Position numbers and translations under genes: made by a program. The notes under the pieces were generated by a model. It was not told the DNA's origin. It was given only the letters and a program-made list of their open reading frames with translations, and ran no database searches. Below are positions 1 to 8,438 of a DNA stretch of 64,000 nucleotides, in pieces. Origin of the DNA: Thermogemmata fonticola. GTDB lineage: Bacteria > Planctomycetota > Planctomycetia > Gemmatales > Gemmataceae. How positions within the stretch are numbered: the stretch's first letter is position 1; every line of letters starts with the position of its first letter. Location of the stretch: positions 744,001 through 808,000 of the forward strand of contig NZ_JACEFB010000001.1 of the NCBI RefSeq assembly GCF_013694095.1, read 5' to 3'.

Positions 1-1140
1 CTTTTCCAGCACAGCCATTAACGCTTGATAGTGGTGCTCAAATCGCCAAGCCAGTCCACTAGCACGGGCCGCGGCAGCGGCTTCCCGGCGATAAGCCGCA
101 TCACACATTCGCTCTAAGGCACGAGCTAGGGCTGGTGTATCGTGGGGATCTTCCACCACCAGGCCTTCTAACGGCGGATGAAGCAATTCTGCCGCCCCGT
201 TATAGCAGCTCGTCACCACGGGCAGGCCGCACGCTAAAGCCTCCAGCACCACAAGCGAACATGGATCGTAAAAGGTGGGATGCACCAGAAAATCCGCCGC
301 AAAAAAACAATCCCGCGGATCCTGCCGCGGTCCCAGAAAACGAAGCCGATCTCCTATCCCCCAACGGCGCGCTTGCCGCTCATAGCGGCGATACCGAGGA
401 TTTCCCACCACCACGAGATACAATGACGGCTTTGTGACACTCGCCAGGGCACGCAGCAATGGTTCCAATCCCTTGAGACGATAATTCATGGCAACAAAAA
501 GAGCAACGACGGCATCGTCGGACACGCCCCAACGCTGGCGTTCCTCATATCGGCGTTTGAAACGATCCTCCGCTGCAAAACGCTGGGAATCGATGGCACT
601 GGGAATAACCTGGATTCTATCTGGGGAAATCCCATAGTGTATCTCGAAATGACGTTGGACCATCCTGCTATTGACGACAATCCAGGGCAATGGTGGCGCG
701 CAATACTGCCGCTTCTCCAAAAAACGATACGACCAATAAGCCGGGTCGAGTCGCTTGAGGCAATAAGCCAGAAAACGAACCCACGGCTGGCGATATTTGA
801 ACAGATTATGCTCAGCACAGGCAACATGTAATCCGCCTTGTGGATACAAAATGTCTTGCCCCCATGTCTTGTCGAAACCAATGCTGACATCATAATCACA
901 TTGAGAAAGAGCAGCGATACATGCATGGCCAAACCGCCAAGGGCGCAGAAATCGCGGCCCCTTTGCCGGGGGAATTCGATGATAGTGCAGGGCTAAAGGT
1001 AACGCCTGCTCATCCCACTCCGAAGCCAATAGATGAACTGTATGACCATCTCGTACCAATCTTCGAGCTAGATCGCAAACATAGGTTTCCGCACCACCAC
1101 GAGCTGGAATCACACGCTCGTAACAGAGAGCGATCCGCAT
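1..1140 (-). CDS. Glycosyltransferase family 4, WaaG-like LPS core transferase (partial)
   Basis: Probably transfers a hexose to the inner core of lipopolysaccharide in the cytoplasm. The frame opens with ATG at 1140 (MRIALCYERV) and stays open to base 1, so the C-terminus is missing. The N-terminal half has the Rossmann-like GT-B start with a glycine pair (RGGAETYVCDLARRL). The C-terminal half carries the donor-binding segment FYDPCSLVVLEALACGLPVV, close to the EX7E region of GT4 enzymes such as WaaG but with Asp at the first acidic position. It overlaps the upstream WaaP-like kinase by 31 bp on the same strand, which suggests translational coupling. WaaG is the best guess because of the neighbouring heptose and core-kinase genes; another GT4 specificity is possible. 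The frame is certain, the substrate is inferred. Confidence 0.85.
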   Translation of the reverse strand, partial: MRIALCYERVIPARGGAETYVCDLARRLVRDGHTVHLLASEWDEQALPLALHYHRIPPAKGPRFLRPWRFGHACIAALSQCDYDVSIGFDKTWGQDILYPQGGLHVACAEHNLFKYRQPWVRFLAYCLKRLDPAYWSYRFLEKRQYCAPPLPWIVVNSRMVQRHFEIHYGISPDRIQVIPSAIDSQRFAAEDRFKRRYEERQRWGVSDDAVVALFVAMNYRLKGLEPLLRALASVTKPSLYLVVVGNPRYRRYERQARRWGIGDRLRFLGPRQDPRDCFFAADFLVHPTFYDPCSLVVLEALACGLPVVTSCYNGAAELLHPPLEGLVVEDPHDTPALARALERMCDAAYRREAAAAARASGLAWRFEHHYQALMAVLEK

Positions 1141-2045
1141 AATTGCTTCCTCCGTCTACGTTCATGTCTTTTATACAAATTAATCTTGAAAAAAATAAAA
1201 TTATATAAAAACTTTTCTCTGATACCTCGGATATTCATATGCTTACAATAGCTAAGCCAAAAAAACCGCCGATCAAAGGAAGTCACCTCGTCAATCTCAC
1301 AAGAAAAGAAAAACTGAGCAAGATCCTTGACCTGCCACCAGATGGCACTCCATCGATGGCGTTGGAGACGGTGTAAGTCAATGAAATATACGTTATTATT
1401 CATATCATTATTAGTATCGAGTATATGAGTTTCATATATATAAAAATGACATAGATATAAATCTTTATGAAAAATGCAATTCTGATGCAGGGTGGCCACC
1501 AAACGTGCCAATTCCGCAAATAAGGCACGTTTCCAAGCGGCGAAGGCCTCCGGTGATAGCGACTTCGCAGCGATTGGGATTGCCTCGTGTAAGGGGAGCA
1601 TGTCGCCTAACTCTTCTATGGCAATGAAACTTTGCAACTTACAGCCTGGCCCCACCCACTGCCCAGCCGCCACCGCGCGAGGAACTGGCCAACCCTGTTG
1701 GGCTGCCCAACGTAACTTCTCCCATTCTTGCAAACCCGGCGACCAAGCTCGACTTGGCCAGAGCAAAGCCAGCAACCGCAAATACCACGGCAAATGATAA
1801 TGACGCTTTAAATATACACTTAATACATAATCATCATAAAAAAATATACGACGACCTATTGAACGTCCCTGTTTAATGTGTAATCGATCCGTTACGGGTT
1901 CGCTCAGAATCCGCTCTTCCCATCGCGGCCCGGCAAAAACCGGCCATTCCGGACTATACCTTATGATGCACCTTCTGCGCTGCCAGCATTTCCAATGAAA
2001 CCTCCAACAGCTCAATAGGGCATCTATCTTAGTGATAAGACTCAT
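1110..2045 (-). CDS. WaaP-like lipopolysaccharide core kinase (InaA/Kdo kinase family)
   Basis: Likely phosphorylates a heptose or Kdo residue of the LPS inner core. It is 311 residues, near the usual length for the WaaP/KdkA fold. The kinase landmarks are present: an ATP-lysine-type segment VYLKRHYH (Lys80), the catalytic loop HKDLYLCHFYI (Asp195) and the metal-binding DLHR (223-226). These are the WaaP forms of HRD and DFG. The C-terminal 90 residues are encoded by distinctly AT-rich DNA and end in a basic run (KRHERRRRK), fitting peripheral membrane attachment. It lies between the tandem kinase gene and the WaaG-like gene. Family assignment is firm, the exact sugar phosphorylated is unknown. 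Confidence 0.85.
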   Translation of the reverse strand: MSLITKIDALLSCWRFHWKCWQRRRCIIRYSPEWPVFAGPRWEERILSEPVTDRLHIKQGRSIGRRIFFYDDYVLSVYLKRHYHLPWYLRLLALLWPSRAWSPGLQEWEKLRWAAQQGWPVPRAVAAGQWVGPGCKLQSFIAIEELGDMLPLHEAIPIAAKSLSPEAFAAWKRALFAELARLVATLHQNCIFHKDLYLCHFYIYETHILDTNNDMNNNVYFIDLHRLQRHRWSAIWWQVKDLAQFFFSCEIDEVTSFDRRFFWLSYCKHMNIRGIREKFLYNFIFFKINLYKRHERRRRKQLCGSLSVTSV

Positions 2046-2104: not shown

Positions 2105-3610
2105 TTATTTCTCATATCCATATTTTATTAATTTATGTACATGAAAAGGTAAATATTTTAATATACTATATAAGTTATTTATGGCTTTACATTTGCTAAT
2201 TCTTTTCCTATAAATTATATATTTTATTTGACAAATATATAATTGATCATTATAAACGCTAAAAGCATTGTGTATAGCCGTGGGAGCCAATAAACAACTA
2301 GCCTCATGCAACCGGCGGAGCAAGCGCCCTAAATCGATTAGCAGGCGGTCATCCTCGAAGCTGCAAGGGAATGAGTAGGGAGCACAAAGCACGAACCACT
2401 CTACGGAATGCCAGGAGCGAAGACGATGTCCGAATGCTAGCAAACGTATTGCGGGCACTCCTCGTCTTTGGAGATGGACCAAGAGCCGTGCCCAGTATTG
2501 GGCAGGCGTTGACAAGGGATAACCACGCCAACTATTCCACAGACCCTTCAGTGTCAGTCGTGAACAGCCGCGTATTAAGTAACCGGTCTCACCGGTGGGG
2601 AGTACCCATGTCATATCATCATGGTTTTCATCGTAAAAAGGCGGAGCCATGGGCGGATGAGGCCACCAACGCGCTGCCTCAGGCGTCACACATACCGCTT
2701 CCTGAGCCAGCCAAATGAATTCGGGAGCTTCATCCTGACTCTGCCGTTGCTCTCGCAAGGAACTCCGAGCAGAGCGATGTTGACTGAGCCGATCGATCCA
2801 TCGGGCAAGTTCTGGCAAGTTCCAACGGCAGGCAGACTGTTGACGGTATGTCGCCAAGGCGGATGAGAGAAGAGCCAAACGTTCGCGCACGCCGACGGAC
2901 TCGTGGGAGATTGAAGCATGCAAATGAGCTAGATCATTAATGCGATCTCGCAGGGGTACGAACAAGCAGCGGTTACTGGACGCCCAATCCACAACAACGA
3001 TCCGGTGGGATTTTGTATTGACAAATATATGCTTGGCTGTCAAGTCTGGCAGGGTGAACCCATAATCGTGAAATCGTGCGATAACCTCGCCGATCTGCCG
3101 GGCTAAATCCCGAGGATTTAGGCCCTCATTTCGTTTGATCCAATGATGCAAATCCACCGCATCATCCAAGGAGGCAACTAATAAGAATGCTTGATTACGA
3201 TTATTTTCTCCAAAAGCAAGCCATTGCGGTACATTCTGTGTAAATTGAGATATTAGTTGCAGCATTCGACCTTCGCGAACGCTACGGGAAACCCAGCCGT
3301 GCCCCTGCCGCCAGTTCCGAAACCGCTCTTTAAGGGTGACATAGTGTTGCCTCTTCAAGTAGGCTTGCCCGATTCTTGGGAGATAAACACGCCGAACATG
3401 ACGATCAGGATGGCCACTGACGATCACGCCAGGAAGTTGAAGATAATCATCGGCTGTCCATAGACCACACTCCTGCATCCGTTGAGCGACTAAGGGATGC
3501 ACCACTATCCAACCCGATGAGGAAGCATTCGAACGGAAGTCATAATACCCACGTAAATGTCTCCTACGACTTCCAAATATTAAAGTATTATGCTGCATGG
3601 CGAGTCTCAT
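2105..3610 (-). CDS. Tandem LPS-kinase-like protein with one intact and one degenerate kinase domain
   Basis: A 501-residue protein, much longer than WaaP. Residues about 60-270 hold a WaaP/InaA-like kinase: YLKRQHY (Lys86), PDLTAKHIFVN (Asp189) and VVVDWASS (Asp208). Residues about 340-480 look like a second copy of the fold (a YLIRG strand and a basic helix at its start), but the catalytic-loop position reads LLAPTAIHNAF without Asp and no clear metal-binding Asp follows, so this half is probably inactive. ATG at 3598 is an alternative start, four codons in. It overlaps the end of waaF by 23 bp (11 bp with the alternative start). The last 50 codons are extremely AT-rich. It may phosphorylate the LPS core, with the second domain structural. 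Role inferred from motif and operon. Confidence 0.8.
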   Translation of the reverse strand: MRLAMQHNTLIFGSRRRHLRGYYDFRSNASSSGWIVVHPLVAQRMQECGLWTADDYLQLPGVIVSGHPDRHVRRVYLPRIGQAYLKRQHYVTLKERFRNWRQGHGWVSRSVREGRMLQLISQFTQNVPQWLAFGENNRNQAFLLVASLDDAVDLHHWIKRNEGLNPRDLARQIGEVIARFHDYGFTLPDLTAKHIFVNTKSHRIVVVDWASSNRCLFVPLRDRINDLAHLHASISHESVGVRERLALLSSALATYRQQSACRWNLPELARWIDRLSQHRSARSSLREQRQSQDEAPEFIWLAQEAVCVTPEAARWWPHPPMAPPFYDENHDDMTWVLPTGETGYLIRGCSRLTLKGLWNSWRGYPLSTPAQYWARLLVHLQRRGVPAIRLLAFGHRLRSWHSVEWFVLCAPYSFPCSFEDDRLLIDLGRLLRRLHEASCLLAPTAIHNAFSVYNDQLYICQIKYIIYRKRISKCKAINNLYSILKYLPFHVHKLIKYGYEK

Positions 3611-4730
3611 ATAATCTTTTCAAATTATTACATGATACAATTTTGCTGTTATAAATACCTAGAATTTGTATCAATGCATCAAATACTTCTTCCGGTCTAA
3701 GTGCTTTCATGCAGAGATGGTGTTTTTCGGGACATTGACGCTTTTGGCATGGACCGCATGAAACCTTTTTTTGTAAGTGTAAAGCATATTCGTAATATGT
3801 TTCTGTCCAGGCAATGTGTGTAGGTCCAAAGAGTGTGACCACGGGGCGTCCTAAAGCAGCAGCAATATGTCGCGGTCCGCTGTCGGTCGTAACCAATGCC
3901 GCAGCACGCCGTAAGAGAGCTTTGGTAAGTCCCAAGGAGGGTGGCGCTACACTGCCCACATGAAACACATGTGGACTACGACTGGCACGCACTATCCCTG
4001 CTGCCAGCGACTCTTCTTGGGGACCGTGGAGGATGACAACGGCGGCGTGTAAACACTGAGTGACCCATCGAGCCAGTTGGGCGAAATGATCGATCGGCCA
4101 AAGTTTGGATGATCCATAGGCAGCACCACAGTGGAACATTATCACTTGACTATAAGTGTCAAGTTTGCAAGACCTCCAGAATAAATCAGCGTTATCTATA
4201 TGTTGAGGTGTAACATACAACTCCATACGATATCCAGGGTGTGGCGTACCGACGGCTTGGGCCAAATGATTGTAATCGTCGATAATCGGATGAGGCGTAG
4301 ATTTACGAAATTGGCGCGGATAGTTAACGGGACGGTGAAGCAACCAGAAACGTCCATATCGGGCAAAACCGATAATCTGTTGGCAACGACCAAGTCGTGC
4401 TAATACAGCGGCGCGAAATGAATTGGGAAACAAGATGGCCCAATCCGGGCGGAATTGTCTCAATATCTTACTGGTTGCCAACAATCCTTTAGGTCCGTTT
4501 AGTCTGCGCTCCCATGGAATAATTTGATCAAACCACGGCACTCCTTCTAGTAAGTCGGTTACAATATGAGGACGGCCGACGCCGATGATGACACTTCCGG
4601 GATAGGTTTGGCGGATGGCACGAATGGCGGGTGTTGCCATCACAGCATCACCTACCCAATTGGGAAGGATTAGAGCTATTGTACGTGGGATATTTGAGGG
4701 CAGACTATTTTCCGAATTTTTTTTAATCAT
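3588..4730 (-). CDS. waaF: ADP-heptose:LPS heptosyltransferase II
   Basis: GT9-family enzyme that adds the second L-glycero-D-manno-heptose to the LPS inner core at the cytoplasmic face of the inner membrane. The 380 residues match the family. Visible signatures are the N-terminal LPNWVGDAVMATPAIRAIRQ, the donor-site segment VTTDSGPRHIAAALGRPVV followed by LFGPT, and a C-terminal cysteine cluster SCGPCQKRQCPEKHHLCM, which is typical of WaaF more than WaaC. Its ATG overlaps the hldE stop in an ATGA arrangement, a sign of translational coupling. The gene follows hldE, which makes the donor, and precedes the core kinases, a coherent heptose pathway order. Confidence 0.92.
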   Translation of the reverse strand: MIKKNSENSLPSNIPRTIALILPNWVGDAVMATPAIRAIRQTYPGSVIIGVGRPHIVTDLLEGVPWFDQIIPWERRLNGPKGLLATSKILRQFRPDWAILFPNSFRAAVLARLGRCQQIIGFARYGRFWLLHRPVNYPRQFRKSTPHPIIDDYNHLAQAVGTPHPGYRMELYVTPQHIDNADLFWRSCKLDTYSQVIMFHCGAAYGSSKLWPIDHFAQLARWVTQCLHAAVVILHGPQEESLAAGIVRASRSPHVFHVGSVAPPSLGLTKALLRRAAALVTTDSGPRHIAAALGRPVVTLFGPTHIAWTETYYEYALHLQKKVSCGPCQKRQCPEKHHLCMKALRPEEVFDALIQILGIYNSKIVSCNNLKRLYETRHAA

Positions 4731-6214
4731 GCAGCTTTTATCCTTTCAATCAATGATGTTGTTGAATATCCGCGATGAAATTGCGCGATATATACCTTAC
4801 CTCCGTAACTTTCGACAAAATCTGCGCCGACGATCTGATCCTTGCGATAATCTCCACCTTTGACAAGGACATCAGGACGCAACGCTTGGATCAGCGCGAG
4901 GGGAGTCGGTTCATCGAACAGCACGACGTAATCGACATCTTGCAATGCTGCGAGGATTGTAGCACGTTCTGTGTGAGGATTAACAGGTCGAGTTGGTCCT
5001 TTTAAACTTCGTACACTCGTATCACTGTTTAGTCCTACAATTAAGCAATCAGCTTGCTGTCGAGCTTCTGATAAATAACGAACATGACCAGCATGTAAAA
5101 CGTCAAAGCATCCATTGGTAAAAGCAATACGTTGTCCCAAGGATCGCCGCATTTGTAATAAGGGAAGGAGGCGCGGTAGTGTTACGATCTTGTCCGTAGA
5201 TTGGAAAATAGTGTTACTTGTCGGCGTGTGTAAGATGTCAGCGAGGATATCCGCCCGCGTGACCGGAGATACTCCAATACGTTCCACTTCCAGGCCACCG
5301 GCGATATTGGCGAGACGAGCGGCAGTTTCGTAGTCGGCTTTGGCTGCCAAGGCTAAGGCAAGCGCTGCCATCACCATGTCACCGGCACCGGTGATGTCAT
5401 AGACATGGCGGGGACGTGTGGGAAAATGCTGTCGTCGCCCATCGCGGTGGGCTAAAGCCATGCCATCCTTGTCCAAAGTGACGATACCTGCTTCCAATTC
5501 CAATCGATGCTGCAATTCAGCAGCAGCCTCGAGGGCATCTTCGACCGTGTGGAGAGTACGTCCTACTGCCAATCCAGCTTCCAAGCGATTGGGGGTCAGA
5601 GCCGTACAACCACGGTATTTGGAATAATCTCCCCCGCGGATAGGATCTGCAAGCAAGGGAATGGCCCGCTTTTTAGTAGTAGATATCAGAAATTGTAATA
5701 ATGTGGGTGTACATACACCTTTATCATAGTCGCTAACTAATATAATATCTGCAGAATCTATTAGAGATAGCGCTCTTTGTATAATCACATATTCGATATT
5801 CTGACTAATAGTATGGCGCTCTTCATAATCAACACGTATCATTTGTTGGGGATGGCGTGTTTGTGCTCGGCCGATGTACCGTTCTTTCACGGTGGTGGGG
5901 CGTGATGAGTCCGGGACCACCGTGGATGTGTCGATTCCGAGTTGACGCATCATTGTCAAAACGCGCTCGGCGTTTTCATCGTGGCCGACAACCCCAACAA
6001 CAGCAACGTTGCACTCCAGATGTCGGAGCATCATTGCGACACTGCCTGCCCCTCCTAACCTTTCCTCGCGGTGATCGGCACGCAGTAAGATCACGGGGGC
6101 TTCTTGGCTGATCCGCTCCGCATTGCCCCAAATGTAGCGGTCGAGCATGATATCACCCACCACCACAACCTGGGGTTGTTTTGCACTCTGTAATAATTGA
6201 ATAATATCATTCAT
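4727..6214 (-). CDS. hldE: Bifunctional heptose-7-phosphate kinase / heptose-1-phosphate adenylyltransferase
   Basis: Makes ADP-heptose for the LPS core. The 495 residues fit the fused HldE form. Residues 1-330 are a PfkB/ribokinase domain with GDIMLDRYIWG near the N-terminus, a substrate-binding GGAGSVA (54-60) and the catalytic GAGD (276-279). Residues 340-495 are a cytidylyltransferase-like domain with FTNGCFDVLHAGHV, whose HAGH (374-377) is the nucleotide-binding HxGH. Codon use is slightly AT-richer around 5700-5850. The other steps of the pathway (GmhA isomerase, GmhB phosphatase, HldD epimerase) are not in the window. Confidence 0.95.
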   Translation of the reverse strand: MNDIIQLLQSAKQPQVVVVGDIMLDRYIWGNAERISQEAPVILLRADHREERLGGAGSVAMMLRHLECNVAVVGVVGHDENAERVLTMMRQLGIDTSTVVPDSSRPTTVKERYIGRAQTRHPQQMIRVDYEERHTISQNIEYVIIQRALSLIDSADIILVSDYDKGVCTPTLLQFLISTTKKRAIPLLADPIRGGDYSKYRGCTALTPNRLEAGLAVGRTLHTVEDALEAAAELQHRLELEAGIVTLDKDGMALAHRDGRRQHFPTRPRHVYDITGAGDMVMAALALALAAKADYETAARLANIAGGLEVERIGVSPVTRADILADILHTPTSNTIFQSTDKIVTLPRLLPLLQMRRSLGQRIAFTNGCFDVLHAGHVRYLSEARQQADCLIVGLNSDTSVRSLKGPTRPVNPHTERATILAALQDVDYVVLFDEPTPLALIQALRPDVLVKGGDYRKDQIVGADFVESYGGKVYIAQFHRGYSTTSLIERIKAA

Positions 6215-6252: not shown

Positions 6253-7260
6253 TTATGCTACAGATCTCCGCTGATATTCATTATCTCTTATAATATCTTT
6301 CGTATCGTTTTCATAGACATTCTGTCTGTACTCTTGCAAACCTGCAACAATGGCGGCATGCCACAAGGGAATTAGTAGCTCGTGATGGCCAATGATCTCG
6401 ATCCCTTCAGTTCCCGGTCGTCGAAGAACATTCATGGCGGTGCGATATTTCACTTCTTTGTCGAAGTTCACAGTTACAAGTCCTTCGAGGTCGTAGCCGC
6501 AATTGCGCGCGACTGAGACAGCTTTGAGAAAGACTTCCGGCATGATCACTGCGGAACCAAGATTGAACCAAAGACCGTGCTGCAGTTGGGACACCACCGA
6601 GCAGAGGATGCGGAAGTCGAGCAAGGTAGCAGTGCCAAGGGCGGCCCCATCGAGTTGCGGATGCATGTGAACGATATCCGTACCGATGGCAACGTGGATG
6701 GTGCAGGGTATGCGGTAACGCCACGCTGCAGCGACGAGGCTGATATCTGCATGGGGGCAGTTCCAGCGATGCTGGATGAGCCAACCAAGAGCATAGCCCA
6801 AACCGCAGTGGTGAGTTGCGGCATAATCCACAGCTTGAGCGAAGATTTCTGCGGTCTCGCGGGCCATACCGAAGTCGCCGCGAGGGAGCTGAGCCGCCAC
6901 ATCTTCGCTGGTTTTTCCTGCGTATGCCAATTCAAAGTCATGGATGGCCGCTGAGCCGTTCATGGCGACGGCGCGGATGACACCTCTGCGGATCAGATCG
7001 ATGAGATAGGGAGCACAACCGGTTTTGATGACATGCCCGCCGAGAGCAACCGCAATACATTTGCCATCACGATGACGTTGCAGGACGTAATCCCGGACTT
7101 TACGCAGTTCGACTGCCGCGAGTTGCCGGGGCAAGGTTTCCAGCCAATCGGTCATGGGCCGCGCAGGATCACACGGCGTGCCCAAGTCCTGGATTGAGAC
7201 TTTGCTGGGCCTATCGTGGAGCGAGTAAGTTCGCAATCGGGTTAGGTCGAAGGGTTGCAT
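6253..7260 (-). CDS. Conserved protein of LPS-heptose clusters, deoxyhypusine-synthase-like
   Basis: A 335-residue soluble protein with a Rossmann-like core: CIAVALGGHVIKTGCAPYLI (about residues 69-88), then a region on AVAMNGSAAIHDFELAYAGKT. The pattern resembles the NAD-binding fold of deoxyhypusine synthase, and similar genes of unknown function occur beside heptose genes in other bacteria; both statements are from memory and unverified. Bacteria of this type have no hypusine-containing eIF5A that I can see here, so a different amine, sugar or lipid substrate is more likely. It overlaps lpxK by 19 bp and ends 38 bp before hldE, so it is probably co-transcribed with lipid A and core genes. 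No signal peptide or membrane segment is visible. Function unknown. Confidence 0.8.
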   Translation of the reverse strand: MQPFDLTRLRTYSLHDRPSKVSIQDLGTPCDPARPMTDWLETLPRQLAAVELRKVRDYVLQRHRDGKCIAVALGGHVIKTGCAPYLIDLIRRGVIRAVAMNGSAAIHDFELAYAGKTSEDVAAQLPRGDFGMARETAEIFAQAVDYAATHHCGLGYALGWLIQHRWNCPHADISLVAAAWRYRIPCTIHVAIGTDIVHMHPQLDGAALGTATLLDFRILCSVVSQLQHGLWFNLGSAVIMPEVFLKAVSVARNCGYDLEGLVTVNFDKEVKYRTAMNVLRRPGTEGIEIIGHHELLIPLWHAAIVAGLQEYRQNVYENDTKDIIRDNEYQRRSVA

Positions 7261-8438
7261 CCTTGCCTCGTGGAATTCAGCGAGCCATCCGTGATCGCCG
7301 TTTCGCAGGGAGAAGCGGGGAACTCCTTGCCGGAAACGCTACCCGGCTCTGCCTCCAGCGTACTCTCTTGGAGAATGAGGGTGCTTATACGATCCAGAGC
7401 AGCATGGAAGGTTTCGGCACCCGTCGTCAGACGCCAGGTGATAGTCAGCGTTCCCAGGGGCCGCCCGCCCAATTCGTCCAGCCGAAGTTTGACCCAATCT
7501 TTGCGTGTGGTCACGATCCAGGTGTCCGGGGGCGTCGTAGCAGCCCAACGGTGGAGTTCTGCGACATCCGCCGAGGTATAAGGGTAGTGGTCCGGATAGA
7601 CGCGAAAGTCGAGGAGCCTAGCCCCCAGTTGCTCCAGCGTGCGGCGGAAAGCATCCGGTCGACCCAAGCCACAGAACGCAACGACCGAGCGTTCGGCCAA
7701 GGATTGCGGCGGTAATACTTTGTCACCCCAACGGAGAGATTCGGGTTCATGGATGGCCTGGGCGATGGGAAGGGAGGGGAAACGCCGAGTTATATTTCGG
7801 TACAGGGCGTCCAGTTCTGCGGGAGAAACCTGATCTGTTCGCGTGATGACGAGGTGGCCGGCGCGGGCCAAAGCGGTGAACGGCTCGCGCAGCATACCGC
7901 GCGGGAAAAGGGCATCCCTCTCTGGCGGTTGTGTGGCATCGAGCAACACGATATCCAAGTCGCGATGGAGGCGGCGGTGTTGAAAACCGTCGTCGAGCAG
8001 AAGGAGCTGGCTTTCTAGCTCGTGGACAGCACATTCCGCAGCGGCAACTCGATCGGGATTCTGGAGATGCGGCACGTCTGGGAGGCTTTCTTCCAACAGT
8101 AGAGCTTCATCATTACGGGAATCCAGGCCGCCATAACCCCGGCTCAGAACGGCCACCCGTATGTCCCGCTGGCGATAGTAGCGGGCAATGTATTCGATGC
8201 AGGGAGTTTTTCCCGTACCGCCCATGCTCAGGTTACCCACACTGATGACAGGCACTGCAGCCGCGTGAATGGAAAGCCAGCGGTGATCATAAAGCCAATT
8301 CCGCAGCCGGATAGTCCCGCCATACGGCCAACTGGCGATCCGCAACAGAGCGCGACCCAGACGCGCCTGCAGTCCCGTCCTGCGTCTGAGAACGATTTCC
8401 CTCCACGCGTTTTCCCAACGCTGCTGCCAGTGTTCCAT
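7242..8438 (-). CDS. lpxK: Tetraacyldisaccharide 4'-kinase
   Basis: Phosphorylates the 4' position of the lipid A disaccharide at the inner membrane, the sixth Raetz pathway step. The P-loop GNLSMGGTGKTP lies at residues 68-79, preceded by the conserved VPVISV strand and followed by VLSRGYGG. DDGFQHRRLHRDLDIVLLDA in the middle is also typical of LpxK. The protein is 398 residues, longer than the usual 310-350; the extra residues are a C-terminal tail after about 350 without recognisable motifs. As first gene of the envelope operon it suggests shared control of lipid A and core assembly. Confidence 0.95.
   Translation of the reverse strand: MEHWQQRWENAWREIVLRRRTGLQARLGRALLRIASWPYGGTIRLRNWLYDHRWLSIHAAAVPVISVGNLSMGGTGKTPCIEYIARYYRQRDIRVAVLSRGYGGLDSRNDEALLLEESLPDVPHLQNPDRVAAAECAVHELESQLLLLDDGFQHRRLHRDLDIVLLDATQPPERDALFPRGMLREPFTALARAGHLVITRTDQVSPAELDALYRNITRRFPSLPIAQAIHEPESLRWGDKVLPPQSLAERSVVAFCGLGRPDAFRRTLEQLGARLLDFRVYPDHYPYTSADVAELHRWAATTPPDTWIVTTRKDWVKLRLDELGGRPLGTLTITWRLTTGAETFHAALDRISTLILQESTLEAEPGSVSGKEFPASPCETAITDGSLNSTRQGCNPST

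Follow-up and report, generated by a model that had tools for sequence, protein, structure and literature searches.

ADP-L-glycero-D-manno-heptose is a core building block of lipopolysaccharide (LPS), and the established pathway for its synthesis comprises GmhA, the kinase of HldE, GmhB, the nucleotidyltransferase of HldE, and HldD. The latter enzyme, also named RfaD, is an epimerase of the short-chain dehydrogenase (SDR) type, which oxidises C6'' and then reduces it from the other face with the bound nicotinamide cofactor. To our knowledge, HldD is the only established epimerase for ADP-L-glycero-D-manno-heptose, and HldE is found without HldD in 38 of 54 HldE-bearing genomes of Planctomycetota and in 106 of 135 of Desulfobacterota. 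Two further enzymes, deoxyhypusine synthase (DHS), whose catalytic lysine is held in a GGGxxK motif, and the ornithine cyclodeaminase AgrE, use bound NAD for hydride transfer.

GSU2086 of Geobacter sulfurreducens represents a protein family whose model name carries no function. In the portion of PMC5585712 that covers these genes, the consecutive tags GSU2085-2087 correspond to hldE, GSU2086 and gmhA, and the Tn-seq scores of the three genes on electrodes are alike (-3.1, -3.2 and -3.7, respectively). Transposon insertions in GSU2086 may act via polar effects on hldE. A literature search within one collection found no published function for the GSU2086 family, no literature on DHS in connection with heptose or LPS, on the replacement of HldD, or on the nickel-pincer nucleotide with ornithine cyclodeaminase, and nothing of use on heptose in the LPS of Geobacter or planctomycetes. 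The structure of the LPS core of G. sulfurreducens has reportedly been published.

In this work, we analysed a member of this family encoded in the planctomycete Thermogemmata fonticola, within a window of 64,000 nucleotides (the whole stretch of DNA under study), and compared its sequence, modelled fold, genomic neighbourhoods and distribution with those of HldD and of enzymes with the DHS fold. The analysis links one uncharacterised family to the HldD gap and supplies a modelled fold for it. The genes of the window that are needed for the argument are as follows (positions within the window).

1110..2045, minus strand: Kdo/WaaP-family LPS kinase-like protein (PF06293, 66 bits)
2105..3610, minus strand: Kdo/WaaP-family LPS kinase-like protein (PF06293, 57 bits)
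3588..4730, minus strand: GT9 heptosyltransferase, WaaF-like (PF01075; TIGR02195, 161 bits, cut-off 134.6)
4727..6214, minus strand: hldE, heptose-7-phosphate kinase / heptose-1-phosphate adenylyltransferase (PRK11316, 449 bits, cut-off 521; TIGR02198, 317 bits, cut-off 345; nucleotidyltransferase domain TIGR02199, 205 bits, cut-off 181.5)
6253..7260, minus strand: GSU2086-family protein of the B subfamily, 335 aa, with a DHS/ornithine-cyclodeaminase fold (NF052581, 361 bits; tree; modelled fold)
7242..7260, minus strand: overlap of 19 bp between the 3' end of lpxK and the start of the B gene
7242..8438, minus strand: lpxK, tetraacyldisaccharide 4'-kinase (PF02606, 253 bits; TIGR00682, 181.6 bits, cut-off 91.95)

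The genes are read in the order lpxK, B gene, hldE, GT9 heptosyltransferase, and two Kdo/WaaP-family kinases. The B gene is an open reading frame with an ATG start, and hldE starts 38 bp downstream of it on the same strand; the overlap with lpxK and the proximity to hldE that a preliminary description of this DNA had noted are therefore confirmed, with the neighbours as it named them. The linkage with heptose genes agrees with that of GSU2086: the gene of G. sulfurreducens has gmhA and hldE as neighbours, and that of the window has hldE and lpxK. The GmhA-like gene of the window's genome lies on another contig (G000:C6:239889-240359; 97 bits, under the cut-off). A comparison of the DNA with E. 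coli gave no match.

The window protein matches the NCBIfam model NF052581, ‘GSU2086 family protein’, over its full length (361.2 bits against a cut-off of 250; residues 3-301 on profile positions 1-299 of 301). This is the sole specific family model whose cut-off the protein exceeds, and nothing speaks against its membership. Matches over the cut-off are present in 50 of 59 genomes of Planctomycetota, namely the window's own and 58 relatives. A single-sequence scan of a collection of genome contigs returned 34 pattern matches and no relative. In a tree of 168 family sequences, which contains some duplicates because a few genomes are present in both collections, the B subfamily (118 sequences, including the window protein) is separated from the A/C subfamilies (50 sequences) with a support of 1.0. 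B genes belong to LPS operons, mostly in genomes that lack HldD, and A and C genes to other heptose-like clusters. The family has a nearly invariant polar core (H76, H107, D108, E110, E119, H189, D195, D215, K246, D267 and R273); Lys246 is invariant in B, A and C, and position 242 is always Glu in B and A, and Gln in C.

The linkage of the B gene with LPS genes, which the preliminary description had proposed to examine by neighbourhood conservation, is retained widely. We collected 80 B loci from named genomes that belong, by record title, to Planctomycetota, Deltaproteobacteria/Desulfobacterales, Nitrospirae, Acidobacteria and others. In 66 of them, at least one of lpxK, gmhA and a heptose kinase gene lies within 4 kb of B; the 14 loci with none of the three include some on short contigs. 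In the three of these 14 whose neighbours were inspected (L101, L135 and L151), most neighbours are unrelated, and L101 has an LptE-like gene. In relatives of the window organism the operon is lpxK-B-hldE-GT9-waaP or parts thereof, and B adjoins gmhA in numerous loci whose titles name Deltaproteobacteria, Desulfobacterales or Nitrospirae. HldD was found in none of the 80 neighbourhoods.

The same loci bear on the question of which step of the heptose pathway B might take over. Replacement of GmhA or HldE was rejected, as 30 of the 80 loci have gmhA, and 29 a heptose kinase, no further than 4 kb from B; in addition, a GmhA-like match was obtained in all 12 genomes tried, B- and HldD-bearing alike, two of them over the cut-off. 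A general replacement of GmhB was likewise rejected, since gmhB is found near B in two of the 80 loci and also in the L122 cluster, slightly further along the cluster than 4 kb from B. This cluster encodes LpxK, B, HldE, GmhA (197 bits, cut-off 209) and GmhB (167 bits, cut-off 178), and HldD was not found in its genome, G087. With all other genes of the pathway in one cluster, the one missing step is epimerisation.

The distribution of B and HldD was then compared across genomes, with HldD called by TIGR02197 over its cut-off (274.6 bits). Among the 59 genomes of Planctomycetota, B is present in 31 and HldD in 16, and no genome has both (Fisher p 2.8e-7; as the genomes are not independent, this and the p-values below overstate the evidence). 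Restriction to the 54 genomes with HldE, called by TIGR02198 at E 1e-60 (four of them exceed that model's own cut-off), leaves 30 with B only, 16 with HldD only, eight with neither and none with both (p 3.5e-8). For the 35 genomes of the window's own family, the corresponding numbers are 22, 10, three and zero. In one of the eight genomes with neither gene (G030), a fragment of a GSU2086-family gene adjoins hldE at the end of a contig. The possibility that the model had overlooked HldD was rejected, since the scores for HldD have a bimodal distribution (304-411 bits, and 149 bits or less), and two of 14 control genomes exceeded the cut-off; the control genomes matched at E 1e-50 in this check were E. 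coli, Caulobacter and Haloferax. The window's open reading frame itself gave no match to TIGR02197 or to SDR models at E 0.001.

The window's family includes 10 genomes with HldD. In six of these (G008, G010, G016, G026, G031 and G032), lpxK abuts hldE with no B gene between them, either overlapping or separated by at most 83 bp, and the following GT9-waaP-waaP-waaG genes are the same. In two others (G002 and G009), B is absent beside hldE and GT9, and lpxK was not found next to these, and in the remaining two (G020 and G034) the matches are to separate kinase and nucleotidyltransferase genes. One genome (G006, 75% complete) lacks B in an lpxK-hldE arrangement, and HldD was likewise not found. 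In genomes with otherwise similar heptose/LPS operons, B would fill the place of HldD. In a tree of HldE, GT9 and LpxK, which has several weak branches and whose operon genes may themselves move, the B and HldD states interleave: the window genus, which has B, is nested together with the HldD genomes G016 and G032 (supports of 0.93 and 0.999), and Fitch parsimony requires six changes on 41 tips. Across 1000 label shuffles the mean was 10.5 changes and the minimum six, so that the observed value equals the lowest and the states are not random on the tree.

In Desulfobacterota, the phylum of the Geobacter metagenome-assembled genome (MAG), 94 of 148 genomes carry the family, 31 carry HldD, and eight carry both (odds ratio 0.125, p 1.8e-6); for the 135 genomes with HldE (TIGR02198 at E 1e-35), the odds ratio of family versus HldD is 0.094 (p 4e-7). 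Two of the eight genomes with both (G148 and G210) have A-type copies only, and with these counted as B-negative the table becomes 6/86/25/31 with an odds ratio of 0.087. The six others (G122, G159, G174, G180, G199 and G228) are true exceptions that possess B and HldD together. Among 149 genomes of Acidobacteriota, the family is present in 44, HldD in 34, and both in two (p 4e-4); both of these have only A-type copies, and typing in this phylum covers copies from 10 of the 44 genomes, assigned by best match as five A and five B. Of 50 genomes reached via their B loci, one (G076) has HldD in addition to B. Neither the family nor HldD was found in 28 of the 135 HldE-bearing Desulfobacterota. 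HldE-bearing genomes with neither gene indicate that L-glycero heptose is seemingly not compulsory, and suggest that some lineages do without both B and HldD.

B and HldD thus nearly exclude each other, a relationship that is new in this analysis and for which the repeated switches between the two weigh more than the p-values. The exclusion could also be read as a product of lineage history, with B having an accessory or regulatory role in LPS operons and no part in epimerisation. Such a role would be compatible with the genomes that have neither gene and with the seven that have both; we nevertheless consider this account unlikely, because six switches are inferred within one operon set, the association has the same sign in three phyla, and the nearly invariant polar core is what would be expected of an enzyme.

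The fold of the B protein was predicted with AlphaFold2 from an alignment of 66 B-type proteins (mean pLDDT 94.3, pTM 0.90). In a Foldseek search of the PDB, the best matches of the model were deoxyhypusine synthases (E 3e-9 to 7cmc), and ArgZ/AgrE and the LOR/SDH protein 3C2Q were within the first 50 matches. Superposition with VIA-align 2 gave Z scores of about 22 for AgrE/ArgZ, 21.5 for the Pyrococcus DHS (7cmc, 269 residues) and about 20 for human DHS; the ornithine cyclodeaminase domain of AgrE/ArgZ and the LOR/SDH-type 3C2Q are the closest in fold (Z 21-22, 210-221 aligned residues). HldD has a fold unlike that of B. The proposal that the gene encodes a protein with a DHS-like, NAD-type fold therefore held in the model, in both structural comparisons and in profile-profile alignment.

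At the sequence level, the three closest structures share with the B protein a stretch of about 65 residues, GxxVIxxG...HDxE, and this stretch alone aligns by sequence. The Pfam matches of B are limited to a sub-threshold Rossmann domain of ArgZ and noise-level DS, and the models for ornithine cyclodeaminase stay under their cut-offs (ArgZ-like_C_2nd, PF21570, 23.2 versus 27 bits; TIGR00300, 23.1 versus 410.8; bifunc_ArgZ, 24.5 versus 1025). ArgZ/AgrE also differ in genomic setting, that of the B gene being heptose and not ornithine. The relation to DHS (PF01916) appears as distant profile homology: the family profile aligns with a profile of 28 planctomycete DHS-type proteins over 191 columns (residues 22-223) with an hhalign probability of 96.6% and E 5e-10, as compared with 11% for the B alignment against one DHS sequence. 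The preliminary description had made its reading depend on a profile match, and such a match was thus found with DHS as well as with NF052581. Judged by its fold, B may bind NAD(P); by its title, the structure 6lrg is a complex of AgrE with ornithine and NAD.

The B protein has a DHS-type fold but is no DHS by the Pfam test: the DS model scores 11.1 bits (E 0.23) and does not reach its gathering score of 27 bits. The GGGxxK motif is absent from the sequence. With hhalign the position of the DHS lysine falls on Glu242 under -mact 0 and not under -glob, the default alignment ending at residue 223; the invariant Lys246 is located near Glu242. A separate DHS-family protein is encoded in the window's genome, where it is the one match of the DS model, exceeds the Pfam cut-off and keeps GGGxxK. 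The assignment of B as a DHS or homospermidine synthase was rejected on these three grounds. They equally leave without support the earlier suggestion that the protein may couple amines to sugars or lipids. A wider form of that suggestion, in which an enzyme like DHS or homospermidine synthase transfers an aminoalkyl group to a sugar, a lipid or a protein, would draw on the common fold and on the distant profile homology; given the noise-level Pfam score, the low hhalign value against a single sequence, the missing motif and the second protein, and since such a transfer would leave the exclusion of HldD unexplained, we consider it very improbable, if marginally less so in view of the conflicting placements of the DHS lysine. 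As a separate observation, hldD adjoins a gene for a protein similar to ‘1,9-bis(guanidino)-5-aza-nonane synthase’ (602 bits), a polyamine enzyme of the DHS fold, at L213:4314-8114 and L215:5979-8492 in the genomes G009 and G049.

The distribution of B versus HldD points to the heptose pathway, with B as a substitute for HldD. We see about an even chance that B is an NAD-dependent C6 epimerase, or an equivalent bypass, which replaces HldD in the ADP-heptose pathway. By analogy with DHS and AgrE, oxidation and reduction at C6 can be inferred to be a natural use of the NAD pocket of this fold. The protein would hold NAD in the Rossmann-like pocket, accept a hydride from the heptose at C6 and deliver it back to the opposite face, and the product would be the L-glycero-D-manno form, to be used by the common heptosyltransferase. 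Either ADP-D-glycero-D-manno-heptose, which is also the substrate of HldD, or a heptose phosphate from GmhA/HldE could serve as substrate. The ADP-heptose level is favoured by the result that no residue of HldE or GT9 was found to track the B/HldD state, and the phosphate level by the frequent position of paralogues beside heptose kinases.

The paralogues deserve attention here, as they raise the main competing account. A-type genes often have as neighbour a PfkB kinase that stands alone and is best matched by the heptose-7-phosphate kinase model, and others are found in clusters with GmhA-like, HldE-like and GalE-like enzymes; some C-type genes adjoin PfkB and GmhA, and others hldD (L040, L063 and L065). 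Because A and C paralogues belong to heptose-like clusters irrespective of the presence of HldD or another SDR, the reaction of the family as a whole need not be C6 epimerisation, and their coexistence with these enzymes makes a different heptose product the main rival. In that case B would alter the heptose phosphate before the kinase acts, by oxidation, epimerisation or another change, so that a different ADP-heptose is formed and HldD is unneeded. Besides the setting of the paralogues, the many loci with B beside gmhA would agree with this. On the other hand, one GT9, kinase and operon set serves B and HldD genomes alike, and their phylogeny is interleaved. Further, no column of HldE, GT9 or LpxK was found to separate B from HldD genomes beyond chance in the small samples compared (25-28 B versus 6-8 HldD genomes), as would be expected if substrate and product were equal in both. 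An equal product fits these results better, and a different heptose seems possible but rather doubtful.

Taking substitution for HldD together with the paralogues, we propose tentatively, as a reading slightly on the doubtful side of even, that DHS-fold enzymes may epimerise sugars. GSU2086-B would be an additional 6-epimerase of ADP-heptose (or heptose phosphate), unrelated to HldD and employed in its place in Planctomycetota, Desulfobacterota, Acidobacteriota and Nitrospirota and repeatedly swapped with it inside one LPS operon, and A and C would be sister epimerases for other heptose-like sugars. If this is true, the DHS/ornithine-cyclodeaminase fold would gain a new reaction class, and the absence of HldD could no longer be read as the absence of L,D-heptose.

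Several loci encountered during the analysis are of interest in their own right. The genome of the window carries a second GSU2086 paralogue, of type A (G000:C5:171054-171983; L014, L052), which adjoins a stand-alone PfkB kinase (111 bits with the heptose-7-phosphate kinase model, cut-off 345) and an MFS transporter and perhaps belongs to a separate heptose-like sugar pathway. In the phylum of the Geobacter MAG, A-type genes cluster with HldE-like proteins (L195:2754-9365, L183, L193 and L178), and in L195 and L183 the domain order of these is reversed, with the nucleotidyltransferase before the kinase. The L195 cluster also encodes a GmhA-like isomerase, a GalE-like epimerase, an O-antigen-ligase-like protein and a glycosyltransferase, and looks like a nucleotide-heptose pathway without assignment. 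A single sequence of the family that branches at the root of the A/C clade, L053:9283-10398 in G048, combines B- and A-like residues. Its gene adjoins lpxK (on the opposite strand) and hldE-GT9-waaP, and HldD is absent from the genome, so that this is perhaps an independent recruitment. Finally, a third and distant relative in the window's genome (G000:C1:476137-476349; L249:4574-5884), with a weak family match of 34 bits, resembles the LOR/SDH-type ornithine cyclodeaminase (hhalign 76%, 68 columns). The NCBIfam name of TIGR00300 includes ‘nickel-pincer nucleotide-dependent’, and the nickel-pincer nucleotide is a cofactor that is also used in racemases.
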